This document shows, piece by piece, positions 1 through 6,876 of a DNA stretch of 38,175 nt; position 1 is the first letter of the stretch, and each line of letters starts with the position of its first letter. Position numbers and translations under genes: made by a program. The notes under the pieces are model-generated. The model was not told the DNA's origin. It did no database searches and saw only the letters and a list, made by a program, of their open reading frames with translations. The DNA is taken from contig CAIWVL010000096.1 in NCBI GenBank assembly GCA_903916085.1, forward strand, positions 1-38,175, in the 5' to 3' direction. The stretch comes from an uncultured Spartobacteria bacterium (GTDB taxonomy: Bacteria; Verrucomicrobiota; Verrucomicrobiia; Chthoniobacterales; Chthoniobacteraceae).

Positions 1-765
1 AAACGGGCGCATCTCGACGAACGCACGCTCCACGATTTCGAAACGCGAGCAGGAATGTCGCCGCAGGACTTTATTGGACACCTTCGTGAAATGCCGGTGC
101 ACGAAATCGCGGCTTGGTTTACCCTAAACCCGGATCTTGGCGAAATCCTCGACCGCAAGAAGGCGAGTCGCGGAAATCCAGTTTATATCGCGCATCATCA
201 GGATAGTTTTGTGGTGGCCGAACACGGTTACGGGACATCGGAAAAACCGGAGGATTACCTTGATGAATTTGCCGAGTTTATCCGTACAAAAACCCAGAGT
301 AACGAGTTGCCTGCGCTGATCACCGTGCTGACGCGCCCGCGTGAGCTGACGCGCCAACAGTTGCGCGAGCTTTTACTGGAACTCGATCGGGCCGGTTTTT
401 CGGAGGTGAACCTCGCCACCGCGTGGAAGGCGATGACGAATCAGGAGATCGCCGCCCGCATTATCGGTTACATTCGCAAAGCGGCGTTGGGTGATCCGCT
501 GGTGCCGTTCGAGCAACGGGTCGACGCTGCGCTTCAGACGTTGCTCGCATCCAAACCCTGGACCACGCCACAACGCGACTGGCTCAAGAAACTCGCCGCC
601 CAAACCAAAGCCAACCTGCTCGTGGATCTCTCCGCAATCGACGATCCCGCGCTCCTTTTCAAACGCGAAGGCGGCGGGTTCCAGCGGCTCAACAAACTCT
701 TCGACGGTCAGCTCACCCAAGTCGTGATGCAATTTAACGAAACCGTCTGGCAACAACTCGCCTGA
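1..765 (+). CDS. hsdR: Type I restriction enzyme R subunit, C-terminal part (5' truncated by window edge)
   Basis: Reading frame is open from base 1 (KRAHLDERTLHDFETRAGMSPQDF...). C-terminal sequence is HsdR-like and hsdM/hsdS follow directly. Confidence 0.85.
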   Translation, partial: KRAHLDERTLHDFETRAGMSPQDFIGHLREMPVHEIAAWFTLNPDLGEILDRKKASRGNPVYIAHHQDSFVVAEHGYGTSEKPEDYLDEFAEFIRTKTQSNELPALITVLTRPRELTRQQLRELLLELDRAGFSEVNLATAWKAMTNQEIAARIIGYIRKAALGDPLVPFEQRVDAALQTLLASKPWTTPQRDWLKKLAAQTKANLLVDLSAIDDPALLFKREGGGFQRLNKLFDGQLTQVVMQFNETVWQQLA

Positions 766-804: not shown

Positions 805-2250
805 ATGACCCACGACATCGTCGCCAAACTCTGGAACCTCTGTAACGTCCTCAAAGACGACGGCGTGACCTATCACCAATACGTCACCGAACTCACCTAT
901 TTGCTGTTTCTCAAAATGGCGCAGGAAACCGGCACCGAGGACCAGCTCCCGCCCGGTTATCGCTGGGCCAATCTCGAAGCCAAAGCCGCTCCAGACCGGC
1001 TTCAGTTCTACAAGATGACGCTGGTTCACCTCGGCTCGAACGGGTCCCGGCTCGTGCAGGAGATCTTTGCGAGCGCGAGTTCCTTCATCAAAAAGCCGGC
1101 CACGTTATCGGCACTGGTCAGCGACATCGCAAAACTCGACTGGTATTCCGCCCGCAAAGAAGGCTTGGGCGACCTCTACGAAGGGCTGCTCGAAAAGAAC
1201 GCCAACGAAAAGAAATCGGGCGCCGGTCAATATTTCACCCCGCGCCAACTCATTGACAGCATGGTGACGGTGATGAAACCGACGCTCAACGACGTCATTC
1301 AGGATCCGGCGGCCGGGACCGGTGGCTTCCTGATTGCGGCAAATCATTACCTGCGTCAGCACCACGATTTCGACAGCCTGACCGAGGCGCAACAGAAGAA
1401 ATACCAGGCCCAGACGTTCTTTGGGATGGAACATGTGCAGGACACACACCGGCTCGCGATGATGAACCTGATGCTGCACGGCATCGATGGCGGGATTGAT
1501 TACGGGGACACACTTTCGGACGATGGGACCCGTTTGCCGAAGGCGACGTTGATGCTGACGAACCCGCCGTTTGGAACGAAAAAAGGCGGTGGTCTGCCGA
1601 CTCGGACGGACTTCACGTTTCCGACGAGCAACAAACAGTTCTGTTTTGTGCAACACATTTACCGTGGCCTTCAAGCCGGTGGGCGGGCGGCGGTGGTGTT
1701 GCCAGATAACGTGTTGTTTGAGAGTGGCGTGGGAAAAGACATCCGGCGCGACCTAATGGATAAGTGTAATCTGCACACGATTCTGCGGTTGCCGACGGGG
1801 ATTTTTTACGCGCAGGGCGTGAAGACCAATGTGTTGTTTTTCACGCGTGGCCAGAGTGAAAAGGGAAACACGAAGGAGGTTTGGGTGTACGATTTGCGGG
1901 CAAACATGCCGCAATTTGGCAAACGGACACCGCTCACTCGGGCGCATTTTGCGGACTTTGACGCGGCGTTTGGGGCCGATCCGTTGGGCGGGCCGGAAGC
2001 GTTGGCGCAACGTGTGGACACTGGGGAGACGGGACGTTTTCGGAAGTTCACGCGGGAATGGATTGCGGAACGGGACGACAGTCTGGACATCGCGTGGCTG
2101 AAGGATGAGAACGCGGAATCGAGTGCGGATTTGCCGGAACCGGCGGTGTTGGCGAACAGTGCGCTCGTGGAGTTGGAGGCGATGATGGAGGATTTGCGCG
2201 GGATTTTGGCGGAACTGGGCGAGGACGAGGCCGCGGAGGTGCTGGAATGA
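805..2250 (+). CDS. hsdM: Type I restriction-modification system M subunit (N6-adenine methyltransferase)
   Basis: N-terminal HsdM region; SAM-binding 'DPAAGTGGFLIAA'; catalytic 'NPPFGTK'; 'GAGQYFTPRQLI'. Confidence 0.97.
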   Translation: MTHDIVAKLWNLCNVLKDDGVTYHQYVTELTYLLFLKMAQETGTEDQLPPGYRWANLEAKAAPDRLQFYKMTLVHLGSNGSRLVQEIFASASSFIKKPATLSALVSDIAKLDWYSARKEGLGDLYEGLLEKNANEKKSGAGQYFTPRQLIDSMVTVMKPTLNDVIQDPAAGTGGFLIAANHYLRQHHDFDSLTEAQQKKYQAQTFFGMEHVQDTHRLAMMNLMLHGIDGGIDYGDTLSDDGTRLPKATLMLTNPPFGTKKGGGLPTRTDFTFPTSNKQFCFVQHIYRGLQAGGRAAVVLPDNVLFESGVGKDIRRDLMDKCNLHTILRLPTGIFYAQGVKTNVLFFTRGQSEKGNTKEVWVYDLRANMPQFGKRTPLTRAHFADFDAAFGADPLGGPEALAQRVDTGETGRFRKFTREWIAERDDSLDIAWLKDENAESSADLPEPAVLANSALVELEAMMEDLRGILAELGEDEAAEVLE

Positions 2251-3563
2251 GCGAGCTACCGGAAGGATGGGCGGAGGTGAGTTTTACTGATGTTTTTGAC
2301 ATTCAGGGAGGAACCCAACCGCCTAAGAGTACATTTGTTTATGAGGCAACCGATGGCTATGTTCAGCTATTACAAATTCGAGACTTTGGCGAAAAGCCCG
2401 TGCCTACCTTTATCCCAGATGCAAAGGGATTAAAGAAGTGTACAGAGGACGACGTTCTTATCGCAAGATATGGAGCTTCATTAGGTCGTATCCTAACGGG
2501 CCATAAAGGAGCTTATAATGTAGCAATGGCAAAGGTGGTTATTCCACCCCAGGTTGATCGAGGGTTTACATATTACCTTCTTAAATCTGATGCATTTCAG
2601 GCGCCATTAAAGCTGGTGTCGCGTTCTGCGCAAAACGGATTTAACCGAGAAGACTTGGCCGGATTTCAACTTCCGCTTGCGCCATATGCGGAGCAGAAGC
2701 GGATCGCAGGGAAGTTGGAGGTGTTGCTTGGGCGAGTGGACGGGTGTCGGGAGCGGCTGGAAGCGGTGGGCGGGATCCTGAAGCGGTTCCGTCAATCGGT
2801 GCTTGCGGCGGCGACGAGTGGGCGGCTCACGGAAGACTGGCGGGAGGCGAACGGCGGTGGGGAGGAGTGGAGGGAGGATTATATAGAGGCCGTAGCTCAA
2901 GTTGGTACGGGATCGACACCGCTCCGCTCAAATTCATTGTTTTTTGCCAATAATGGAACTCCCTGGATTACAAGTGCTGCTACTTCCCAGCGAACTGTAA
3001 TGAAGGCTGAAGAGTTTGTTACTGATGCGGCTATAACTGCGCATCGACTCAAAATTTATCCAATCGGGACGTTACTGGTTGCCATGTACGGGGAGGGTAA
3101 GACTCGTGGCCAAGTCACGGAATTGGGAATTGCCGCAACAATAAATCAAGCGTGCGCCGCGATTAACGTTAATGAGGCAATAGTGAGTAGGCTTTATGTG
3201 AGAATAAGCTTAGAAGCTAACTATCTTGAGATGAGGGAGCTGGCAGAAGGCGGAAATCAACCAAATTTGAACCTTACGAAAATTAAGGAGTTCCCTTTGA
3301 ATCTCCCCCCACTTGCTGAACAACAGGAGATTGTCCGGCGAGTGGAGACGTTATTTGCGTTGGCGGACCAGCTGGAAGCGCGGTTAAGCGAGGTGCGGAC
3401 GACGGTAGAACGGCTGACGCCGGCGTTGTTGGCGAAGGCGTTTCGCGGGGAATTGGTGGCGCAGGATCCGACGGACGAACCGGCGAGTGCGTTGCTGGAA
3501 CGCTTGCGGGCGGGCGGCGTGGACGGTACAAAAGGACGTCGAGGGACGAGGAAGCGGAGGTAG
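2247..3563 (+). CDS. hsdS: Type I restriction-modification system specificity subunit S
   Basis: Two TRD-like halves each followed by a conserved helical spacer (EQKRIAGKLEVLLGRVD..., EQQEIVRRVETLFALADQLEARL...); ATGA overlap with hsdM. Confidence 0.95.
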   Translation: MSELPEGWAEVSFTDVFDIQGGTQPPKSTFVYEATDGYVQLLQIRDFGEKPVPTFIPDAKGLKKCTEDDVLIARYGASLGRILTGHKGAYNVAMAKVVIPPQVDRGFTYYLLKSDAFQAPLKLVSRSAQNGFNREDLAGFQLPLAPYAEQKRIAGKLEVLLGRVDGCRERLEAVGGILKRFRQSVLAAATSGRLTEDWREANGGGEEWREDYIEAVAQVGTGSTPLRSNSLFFANNGTPWITSAATSQRTVMKAEEFVTDAAITAHRLKIYPIGTLLVAMYGEGKTRGQVTELGIAATINQACAAINVNEAIVSRLYVRISLEANYLEMRELAEGGNQPNLNLTKIKEFPLNLPPLAEQQEIVRRVETLFALADQLEARLSEVRTTVERLTPALLAKAFRGELVAQDPTDEPASALLERLRAGGVDGTKGRRGTRKRR

Positions 3564-3582: not shown

Positions 3583-4968
3583 ATGAAGATCACGATCAAA
3601 AACTTAGGCCCACTGAGGCAGGCAGAGTTTTCGCTGGGCGACCTGACGATTATTTGTGGGCAGAACAATACGGGGAAGACCTACGCGACGTATGCGCTAT
3701 TTGGTTTTTTGCAGACATGGAGAGACATGCTTTCCATTTCGATTTCAGAGGTAGTTGTTGACCGTCTTCTTACCGAAGGGAGTACATCCGTTGATGTAGG
3801 TTCTATTCTCACAGACGCTTCGAAAATCTTAGAGTTCGGATGTCAGATGTATTCGTCCAGGCTGCCTTCGGTTTTTGCGGCTGCGCCTGAGCGGTTCAAG
3901 GATTCCGAATTTTCAGTATCAGTGAATCTTGAACAGGATTTGCTGAATGAAAAATACGAACACCGAATAAAATCGGCGACAACAGATCTATTTACATTAA
4001 GTAAGCAGATCGACAGCCCGCTCCTTCAAGTTACGCTTCTTGTAAGTAAAGGACGGATTCAGATTCCCAAAGATGCAATATCCAGGGTTATTACAGACGC
4101 ATTAAAAGAGATTGTTTTTGGAAAAATCTTTCCTCGTCCGTTTATCGCGAGTGCAGAAAGAACGGGAGCCGCTATTTTTCGTAAGGAATTGAATTTTGCA
4201 AAGAACCGAATTCTTGAAGAATTAGGTCAAAAAAGCAAAAGCATCGATCCCTTTGATTTATTGACGAAGGCATTTGATGATTATGCGTTGCCTGTAAAAG
4301 TAAACGTCGATTTTACGCGGGATATTGAATCGATTGCAAAACAGAGCAGTTTTATTGCCGTGGAACATCCGGGCATACTCGGAGATTTCGCAGATATCAT
4401 CGGCGGAGAATATACGGTTACCCGAAATGATGAGCTCTACTACGTCCCCAAAGGCAAGAAGATTAAGCTAAGCATGGACGAAAGTTCGAGTGCTGTTCGA
4501 TCCTTGCTGGATATTGGATTTTATCTGCGAAATGTCGCCCAGCGTGGGGACTTATTAATGGTGGATGAACCGGAGTTAAACCTTCATCCCGAGAATCAGC
4601 GGCGTGTTGCGAGACTTTTTGCCCGTCTTGTACACCTCGGAATCAAGGTGTTTATCACGACACATAGCGATTACATTATTAAAGAGCTAAATACACTGAT
4701 AATGTTGCACCAAGATAAGCCGCATCTCAAGGCGATCGCGGAACGTGAAGGATACCGTCGTGAAGAGTTATTGGAAGCGTCTGGAATTAAAGTTTATATC
4801 GCAGAAGAAGCTCCGGTAATGGTTGATGGTGGCAAACGAAAAATTCGCTGTCAGACGCTGACTCCTGCTGATATTCAGCCCGATGTAGGTATCGAAGCTC
4901 GAAGTTTTGATAGCACTATCGAAAAGATGAATCAGATTCAGGAAGAAATAATCTGGGCAGACCGTTAA
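3583..4968 (+). CDS. AAA-family ATPase (ABC/OLD-like), type I RM-embedded; start set to internal ATG at 3583
   Basis: Walker A 'GQNNTGKT', ABC-like 'LSMDESSSAVRSLL', Walker B 'LLMVDEPELNLHPENQ', 'ITTHSDYIIKELN'. The 3487 start lies inside hsdS, so MKITIKNLGPLRQAEF at 3583 is preferred. Confidence 0.9.
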   Translation: MKITIKNLGPLRQAEFSLGDLTIICGQNNTGKTYATYALFGFLQTWRDMLSISISEVVVDRLLTEGSTSVDVGSILTDASKILEFGCQMYSSRLPSVFAAAPERFKDSEFSVSVNLEQDLLNEKYEHRIKSATTDLFTLSKQIDSPLLQVTLLVSKGRIQIPKDAISRVITDALKEIVFGKIFPRPFIASAERTGAAIFRKELNFAKNRILEELGQKSKSIDPFDLLTKAFDDYALPVKVNVDFTRDIESIAKQSSFIAVEHPGILGDFADIIGGEYTVTRNDELYYVPKGKKIKLSMDESSSAVRSLLDIGFYLRNVAQRGDLLMVDEPELNLHPENQRRVARLFARLVHLGIKVFITTHSDYIIKELNTLIMLHQDKPHLKAIAEREGYRREELLEASGIKVYIAEEAPVMVDGGKRKIRCQTLTPADIQPDVGIEARSFDSTIEKMNQIQEEIIWADR

Positions 4969-4970
4969 AT

Positions 4971-5528
4971 ATGTCTGACCTCGATATTCTTCGCGAAATG
5001 ATTGCGGATAGCGCAATTATTCCTCCCACCGTCCAATATGGGAAGGGAGTGGTTGTCTTGGATGAGCCGGGAGCCCCGGACTCTTCGGTCAAAATTTCCG
5101 ATCTCCCTCATGAGTGTATTGTAATCAAGGCTGATAAATTTAAGTCGCCTGACACGATCTTCACGGAGCAAAGAGGGGCGCGCAAGAGAGCTGACTACAT
5201 TGTAATTGCGGAGGTTAATTCGGAAACCGTGGTTATCTATATTGAATTAAAAAGAAATAAGGGGCGTGCCTTTGAGGTCTCCCAACAATTGGCGGGAGCT
5301 AAGTGCTTTATTTCTTACTGTACCGAAGTGGGGCGACTATTTTGGCAAGAGCTAGATTTTCTTAAAAGGGCGAAGCACCGTTTTGTAAGTGTCGCTCATA
5401 CGAGTCCGTCAAAACAACCGACCCGAATCGAGCGGTCAGCGGTTCTCCACGATAGTCCGGAGAGGCCACTCAAAGTTTCTTGGGCGCGTAATCTTTGGTT
5501 TAATCATTTGGCCAGCGTAAACGGATAG
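4971..5528 (+). CDS. Small protein with putative PD-(D/E)XK nuclease signature, partner of upstream ATPase
   Basis: 'RADYIVIAEVNSETVVIYIELKRNKG...SQQLAGAK' fits D-x16-E-x-K plus downstream Q; ATG lies 2 bp after the ATPase stop codon. Confidence 0.7.
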   Translation: MSDLDILREMIADSAIIPPTVQYGKGVVVLDEPGAPDSSVKISDLPHECIVIKADKFKSPDTIFTEQRGARKRADYIVIAEVNSETVVIYIELKRNKGRAFEVSQQLAGAKCFISYCTEVGRLFWQELDFLKRAKHRFVSVAHTSPSKQPTRIERSAVLHDSPERPLKVSWARNLWFNHLASVNG

Positions 5529-5554: not shown

Positions 5555-5635
5555 GGTTGGACCAACCGGTCTTGAGGCGAGGATGCCTGGACGTTTTTCA
5601 GGAAAAATCACTGGACAAAAAATCGGACATTCCGA
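5555..5635. promoter_or_regulatory. Two short dyads upstream of the Fic gene (candidate operators)
   Basis: GGTTGGACCAACC (5555-5567) and TCGGACATTCCGA (5623-5635), both perfect inverted repeats; GGACATT recurs at 5690-5696 next to the start codon. Confidence 0.35.
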
Positions 5636-5697
5636 TTGTTCTATTTCTCTAATTAGCTTTCATTGAGCTTTTAGCGCTTCAAAAAATTGGGACATTT

Positions 5698-6876
5698 ATG
5701 CGGAAATTTGAGCAATCTCATCCTTGGATCACCTTCCGTTGCGATTTAAGCCGGGCCGGTGCCGACCTTTGGTTACTTCTGGGGGAAGCCGCTTCGAAGT
5801 GTGAACATATCTCGCGTGTCCCGTTGCGTCCGGCTACCGCCGAGCGACTGCATCAACTCTATTTAGCCAAAGGAGCGGCTGCGACGACCGCCATCGAGGG
5901 GAACACGCTTTCCGAAGAGGACGTGCTGAAGGCAGTCGAAGGCACACTTGAGGTGCCGCCATCGAAGGAATACCTGAAGCAGGAGGTGCTGAACATCATC
6001 GCAGCCTGTAACGGCATCACGAAGCAACTGACCACGGGAACGCTCCCCGATTTATCGGTGGACGTTATGGTGGGTTACAATCGGCAGATTCTGGAGCAAC
6101 TGGCGCTCAAGGATAACGTGAACCCAGGAGAACTTCGGACGCATTCGGTGGTAGTTGGGAATGTTTATCGCGGTGCTCCAGCCGAGGATCGTCCTTACCT
6201 GATGCAGCGGCTCAGTGAATGGCTAGGTGGTCCTGAGTTTCAGGCTCCCGAGAACGCCGCAGTCGGGACTGAAACGGTTTATGCGATCCTAAAGGCGATT
6301 GTGGCGCATCTTTACTTAGCGTGGATTCATCCCTTCGGAGACGGGAATGGTCGAACGGCCCGGTTGTTAGAGTTCCATATCTTACTCGCTGCGGGGGTGC
6401 CTTCCCCGGCGGCGCATCTGTTCAGCAATTTCTACAACCAAACCAGAGCCGAGTATTACCGCCAACTGGATCAGGCCAGTAAATCAGGCGGAGAACTTTT
6501 GCCGTTTATCCGGTATGCCGTACGGGGGTTCGTGGATGGTCTCAGAGAGCAGTTAGAAACGATCTGGCACCAGCAATGGGACGTGGCGTGGCAGAATTTC
6601 GTACATGAGAAGTTCCAGAACAAAAACAGCCAGTCCGACGCGCGTCAGCGACAACTGGCGCTAGACCTCGGAGAGAAGGAGGAATGGGTGGACGTTGGAG
6701 CTGTTACGGAACTTACCACGCGGCTTGCAAAAGCGTACGGGAGCAAAACGCTGAAGACTGCACAGCGGGATTTGAATGTGCTTGTAGAGATGGGACTGGT
6801 GACCAAAGAGGGCCGTAGGTTCCGGGCACGTAGAGAGGTTATTTTGGCGTTTTTGCCACTCCGAAAACGAGTGTAA
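5698..6876 (+). CDS. Fic-family protein (putative AMPylase) with N-terminal inhibitory motif and C-terminal winged-helix-like region
   Basis: Catalytic 'HPFGDGNGRTAR'; upstream 'TTAIEGN' matches the (S/T)xxxE(G/N) inhibitory motif. Confidence 0.95.
   Translation: MRKFEQSHPWITFRCDLSRAGADLWLLLGEAASKCEHISRVPLRPATAERLHQLYLAKGAAATTAIEGNTLSEEDVLKAVEGTLEVPPSKEYLKQEVLNIIAACNGITKQLTTGTLPDLSVDVMVGYNRQILEQLALKDNVNPGELRTHSVVVGNVYRGAPAEDRPYLMQRLSEWLGGPEFQAPENAAVGTETVYAILKAIVAHLYLAWIHPFGDGNGRTARLLEFHILLAAGVPSPAAHLFSNFYNQTRAEYYRQLDQASKSGGELLPFIRYAVRGFVDGLREQLETIWHQQWDVAWQNFVHEKFQNKNSQSDARQRQLALDLGEKEEWVDVGAVTELTTRLAKAYGSKTLKTAQRDLNVLVEMGLVTKEGRRFRARREVILAFLPLRKRV

Follow-up and report, generated by a model that had tools for sequence, protein, structure and literature searches.

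We analysed a 38,175-nucleotide stretch of contig CAIWVL010000096.1 from an uncultured Spartobacteria bacterium (hereafter the window), in which an ATPase gene and a small partner gene sit directly behind type I restriction-modification (RM) genes in the order hsdR, hsdM, hsdS, all on the + strand. Because the contig starts at window base 1, hsdR is present only as a C-terminal fragment of 254 aa (1..765, a 5'-open frame), which shares 70% identity with the C-terminus of the 1127-aa HsdR in G015, a genome from the same family. Both of the other RM genes are complete: hsdM (805..2250) encodes a type I N6-adenine methyltransferase of 481 aa (Pfam N6_Mtase, 1.8e-75, and HsdM_N; PADLOC MTase_I, 2.1e-209), and hsdS (2247..3563), which overlaps it by 4 bp, encodes a specificity subunit of 438 aa (Pfam Methylase_S, 4e-26; PADLOC Specificity_I, 1.5e-80). 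The hsdS stop at 3563 is separated by 19 bp from the ATG at 3583 of an OLD/PtuA-type ABC ATPase of 461 aa (3583..4968), and the stop codon of the ATPase (4966-4968) by 2 bp from the ATG at 4971 of a 185-aa protein, a candidate small PD-(D/E)XK-type nuclease, whose gene ends at 5528 (4971..5528). The preliminary description of this DNA had placed the pair inside a type I RM operon, which is correct for gene order and spacing, with hsdR being only a C-terminal fragment. Its ORFs, coordinates, spacing and motifs (GQNNTGKT, DEPELNLHP, D75, E92-L-K94 and a downstream Q) were all confirmed. A promoter scan of the locus gave no excess over shuffled sequences and no + strand site. Seven terminator-like sites were found where 2.9 were expected; two of these lie on the + strand 3' of the pair (5575-5588 and 5621-5637), which we take as weak evidence. 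We note that a Fic protein of 392 aa is encoded on the same strand 169 bp downstream of the pair (5698-6876); it matches PADLOC SoFic at 6.8e-58 and lies under the NCBIfam cut-off for SoFic.

We compared both proteins with the PADLOC, Pfam and NCBIfam models, and the scores establish the family identity of the pair. The ATPase matched PADLOC PDC-M47A (1.5e-228, 757 bits, residues 1-460 of 461), with PD-T4-4_A as the second-best model (1.5e-161, 537 bits). The 185-aa protein matched PDC-M47B over its full length (1.5e-64) together with four more PDC-M47B models, and PD-T4-4_B at 1.5e-6 over residues 66-126 only. These PDC-M47 scores are the best by far, gene order and spacing are alike, and we found no feature that separates the window pair from PDC-M47, whose relatives are 55-68% (ATPase) and 26-49% (small protein) identical to it. 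Judged by these sequence matches, the pair is PDC-M47, already catalogued by PADLOC as a candidate anti-phage system (PADLOC-DB v2), and we refer to its two proteins as A (the ATPase) and B (the small protein). The earlier view of an unassigned system is therefore not supported; assignment was one of the refuting outcomes that the preliminary description itself had named. The PDC models reportedly derive from a 2024 preprint by Payne et al. on embedded defences, and in the literature that we searched PDC-M47 was not mentioned by name. In Pfam, A has AAA domains only (AAA_15, 5.9e-27, and AAA_21) and B has no family above threshold; NCBIfam has no equivalog for either protein. PDC-M47B models recognise every one of the 61 aligned relatives of B, and PD-T4-4_B recognises 41 of them too.

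Three other ATPase-nuclease systems were considered and set aside: (i) Septu, since none of Pfam, PADLOC and NCBIfam gives B an HNH match; (ii) Gabija, since A has no TOPRIM domain and B no helicase match; and (iii) PARIS, since B has no AriB (TOPRIM/DUF4435) match in PADLOC, the similarity of A to AriA (6.1e-29) being due to the ATPase domain common to both. The partner had been described beforehand as neither HNH, UvrD-like nor visibly TOPRIM, and our searches of the same three collections agree.

The motifs of A are those of an OLD-ABC ATPase. Walker A, GQNNTGKT (residues 26-33, 3658..3681), contains N28-N29-T30-G31-K32-T33, invariant in 37 aligned relatives; the Walker B / D-loop motif, DEPELNLHP (residues 328-336, 4564..4590), contains D328-E329, likewise invariant in the 37; S301 and S303 are also invariant in these ATPases; and the H-loop histidine H361 (TTHSD, 4663..4665) is nearly invariant in the aligned relatives. 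The predicted structure of A (pLDDT 80, weak at 193-231) has the ABC/PtuA fold: its Foldseek matches to PtuA chains from Septu and retron complexes have E values of 1e-10 to 1e-8 (best 1.2e-10, probability 1.00).

For B, we built an AlphaFold model from the 61 aligned sequences (pLDDT 91.8, pTM 0.89). The candidate metal ligand D75 (5193..5195), invariant in 61/61, lies immediately before the modelled strand 76-82; the candidate (D/E)XK motif E92-L-K94 (5244..5252) lies at the end of strand 85-93, with E92 conserved in 60 and K94 in all 61 sequences; and Q106 (5286..5288), the downstream Q, is invariant in 61/61 and falls within helix 100-124, after which comes strand 135-142. E32 is invariant as well (61/61). 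The residues of catalytic type are conserved; among the 61, only the partner of locus L078 (11361-11927) deviates at E92, a catalytic-type residue that is N there. In the model, B has the strand-strand-helix core order of PD-(D/E)XK enzymes, with D and (D/E)xK on adjacent core strands. Foldseek found no significant match for the model in the PDB (all E >= 0.099) or in a library of viral models (best E 0.02), and a sequence search of B against solved structures gave chance matches only. BsmI, HincII, FokI, AddAB, Mus81 and cap-snatching endonucleases are among the non-significant top Foldseek matches, where gelsolin-like proteins are common too. Of the earlier proposal of a PD-(D/E)XK fold, the predicted core order and the invariant residues stand, whereas the significant match to a solved PD-(D/E)XK structure is missing. 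On balance, B is likely a PD-(D/E)XK nuclease.

With six aligned ATPases as the query, we scanned 84,980 species genomes and kept 80 loci out of 253 relatives; the 80 are close relatives that were selected by A alone. In all 80, the ATPase gene is followed immediately by a small gene on the same strand, so the pairing is strict. The small gene is intact in 78 of them, two of which (L054 and L060) reach the contig end, and the genes of intact pairs overlap by up to 38 nt or are separated by up to 6 nt. In the other two (L083 and L084), the nuclease gene is split into two frames beside an intact ATPase gene, which may reflect natural B-minus versions or assembly errors. More distant ATPases, from the phylum Verrucomicrobiota, an E. 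coli plasmid and a Vibrio phage, also have a partner of the B type. The claim that the locus holds a two-gene module of an ATPase and a nuclease-type protein is thus borne out by the strict pairing and by a layout like that of the validated systems PD-T4-4 and WonAB.

The surroundings of these pairs vary. With the seeds that we used, no defence genes were detected beside most of the 80 relatives. Among the rest, the pair lies between brxC and pglX of BREX systems (L033, L041, L044, L047, L048 and, fragmentarily, L020; the BREX-set locus L049 ends after the pair, and L005, which groups with the BREX set on the ATPase tree, has a preceding gene that is brxC-like by eye only), between mod and res of type III RM systems (L015, L017, L063), between a DrmD-like SNF2 helicase and a type III Mod (L089), and in DUF1156 loci (L066, L087 and, by eye, the plasmid L013). 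HsdM and HsdS were found within a few genes of the pair only in L051. In 12 of the 72 loci with neighbours on both sides, same-strand genes lie within 60 bp on each side, and 10 of these 12 belong to BREX, RM or DUF1156-type systems. On a tree of 84 ATPases, the setting has to change once for BREX, twice for type III, three times for DUF1156 and twice for type I; its forks are partly unresolved and these counts are rough, but they indicate that embedding arose several times. The pair has thus been placed repeatedly inside modification-based defence operons. A general tie to type I RM, by contrast, has to be rejected, as most pairs stand alone and others lie in BREX, type III RM or DUF1156 systems; since most relatives lie outside RM loci, a functional link to restriction is not required. 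The neighbourhood survey therefore upholds the co-conservation of the pair (80/80) and shows that type I RM is not its usual home; with one relative in 80 near HsdM and HsdS, a specific link to type I RM is weak. In cyanobacteria, a gene that recurs as upstream neighbour, 'cy1194', was also considered as a partner and rejected, as its domains are those of the housekeeping transcription-repair factor Mfd.

By sequence, the nearest validated relative in PADLOC is PD-T4-4, which emerged from a functional selection in E. coli (Vassallo et al. 2022, PMC9519451) and is listed in a review with AAA and PD(D/E)XK domains (PMC10952713). Its ATPase is homologous to A over the full length, its partner is also assigned to PD-(D/E)XK, and the two genes form an operon; it differs in that A scores higher for PDC-M47A and B matches PD-T4-4_B weakly. 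The best-studied analogue is WonAB of the V. cholerae WASA-1 prophage, in which an OLD-ABC ATPase and a small PD-(D/E)xK partner share one operon, as in the window, in a layout related to PD-T4-4 (Adams et al. 2025, PMC12137116). Defence by WonAB needs both genes; it is lost in WonA Walker and H-loop mutants (mutation of H333 abolished it) and in WonB K71A, and the toxicity of WonB depends on the ATPase activity of WonA (PMC12137116). Compared by published positions, WonA K34, R182, E300 and H333 and WonB K71 stand against K32, R193, E329 and H361 of A and K94 of B, so that the Walker A lysine, the Walker B glutamate, the H-loop histidine (H361 corresponding in role to H333) and the nuclease lysine all have counterparts in the window pair; the positions also suggest that the WonAB proteins are shorter than those of the window. 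During WonAB defence, DNA and the chromosome stay intact while translation stops, and tRNA or rRNA has been suggested as the target of WonB (PMC12137116). Septu PtuAB and the PtuA of retron Ec78 share with the window pair the ATPase fold (Foldseek E about 1e-10) and the sensor-plus-nuclease layout, whereas PtuB is an HNH protein and B is of PD-(D/E)XK type. Finally, a BREX survey found OLD-ABC ATPases paired with TOPRIM, HNH, PD-(D/E)XK or PIN nucleases in many taxa and interpreted the pairs of OLD-ABC ATPase and REase as BREX backup effectors (PMC12839542), an interpretation that, by analogy, fits the window locus.

We propose, with a probability of roughly 0.7, that PDC-M47 A and B form one transferable anti-phage module in which A licenses the nuclease B, most likely against host RNA, and thereby aborts infection. 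A would form a head-to-tail ATP dimer that carries B and holds it inactive or stable; on sensing an infection cue, it would license B to cut nucleic acid. If WonAB is a guide, host RNA, for example tRNA or rRNA, is the most likely target, and cleavage would stop translation and lead to abortive infection, an outcome likewise carried over from WonAB. Beside hsdRMS, the pair would act as a second layer that fires if restriction fails or is blocked. Such a backup role, which the preliminary description had put forward together with the idea that A might sense phage or unmodified DNA, draws indirect support from the repeated hosting of the pair by modification-based operons and from the different ATPase-nuclease pair that fills this slot in a sister operon. 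By analogy, then, a backup module of the abortive type, with an ATPase licensing a nuclease, is the most likely description of the pair. With this comparison, an uncharacterised operon joins the lineage in which OLD-ABC ATPases serve as sensors for small nuclease effectors; PD-T4-4 and WonAB are proven members.

B could instead be a DNA nuclease guided by A that degrades invading DNA directly, in the manner of Septu or Gabija, without cell death and independently of the type I enzyme. DNA is the usual substrate of PD-(D/E)XK enzymes, nucleases such as BsmI, HincII, FokI and AddAB are common among those structural matches to B that fall short of significance, the fold of A is closest to PtuA, and in the screen that yielded PD-T4-4, direct immunity came from 7 of the 11 systems that had DNA-binding or cleavage features (PMC9519451). 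We regard direct DNA degradation as a tentative possibility, as WonAB, the closest well-studied analogue, leaves the chromosome intact and blocks translation (PMC12137116).

The slot behind hsdS was compared among related type I operons. A similar HsdM was found in only 6 of 97 genomes searched, including that of the window, and the best other genome was G015 (HsdM 86%, HsdR C-terminus 70% identical). There, the genes behind hsdS are not PDC-M47: a TIGR04435 (restriction system-associated) ATPase (3.3e-92, above cut-off) is followed by a partner of 369 aa with the HNH-like pattern CPFCG...DYDHYL and similarity to PDC-M01B/PDC-M62B. This ATPase is not alignable with A by BLASTP (E 0.10), and its HNH-like partner differs from B. 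Such a pair occupies the same post-hsdS position in the closely related operon of G015 (L104) and in L105; in G459 (HsdM 54-57%) a TIGR04435/HNH-type pair lies 3' of hsdS. Nucleotide similarity between the window and G015 ends inside the 3' end of hsdS (window 3484), which places the exchange point in or just after hsdS. What is new here is that unrelated ATPase-nuclease pairs have been exchanged at the same place behind hsdS of related type I operons. In G015, hsdS and the TIGR04435 ATPase gene form one uninterrupted frame of 1019 codons (L104:6224-9283), a possible HsdS-ATPase fusion, with a base error also possible.

This exchange bears on a second alternative, a guard role with physical coupling of the pair to the RM complex: A would watch the integrity of HsdS/HsdM, or an anti-restriction protein, and fire B when restriction is neutralised. 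The pair begins only 19 bp 3' of hsdS, the same slot of the sister operon holds an unrelated ATPase-nuclease pair in a frame continuous with hsdS, several kinds of modification system host the pair, and PARIS offers a precedent in sensing Ocr (PMC12839542). However, the pair must be able to act without RM or BREX genes, since most relatives have none nearby, and a single fused-frame locus is no proof of contact; we consider physical coupling unlikely. It is similarly doubtful that the post-hsdS position of these type I operons, like the brxC-pglX and mod-res gaps elsewhere, takes up exchangeable ATPase-nuclease guards as cargo, which would keep watch on the modification system itself and fire on its inhibition. 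Were this so, PDC-M47 and TIGR04435-HNH would fill the slot in analogous ways despite their unrelated sequences. The same-slot swap sets up a natural comparison with which to ask if such modules need the restriction system or simply travel with it, and which signal they sense.

The pair's distribution is patchy: among 57 relatives it was found in the window's own genome only, it occurs in 11 of 388 genomes of the phylum, and members lie on plasmids and in a phage. Together with the small partner and the tight operon, this would suit a toxin-antitoxin or selfish maintenance pair hitch-hiking in defence loci. We find this very unlikely, because WonA is required for the toxicity of WonB rather than neutralising it (PMC12137116) and because the pair is embedded repeatedly between core genes of defence operons. 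Least probable of all is that B is not a nuclease and its D...ExK pattern incidental, as its lack of a significant fold match and of a Pfam or NCBIfam family is outweighed by the invariant D75, K94 and Q106 and near-invariant E92 on the right secondary-structure elements and by the PD-(D/E)XK assignment of the related WonB and PD-T4-4_B.

A direct search for homologues of B in IMG/VR and phage records found none. In the P2-like Vibrio phage 1.202.O, a PD-T4-4-type pair is located between the repressor and integrase genes (L096:4001-6029), which recalls the setting of WonAB in WASA-1. On a Serratia plasmid (L095:3989-4690), a related ATPase is reduced to its C-terminal half with the partner gene retained, and the ATPase remnant is flanked by a recombinase gene with its neighbours, present as two copies in inverted orientation.
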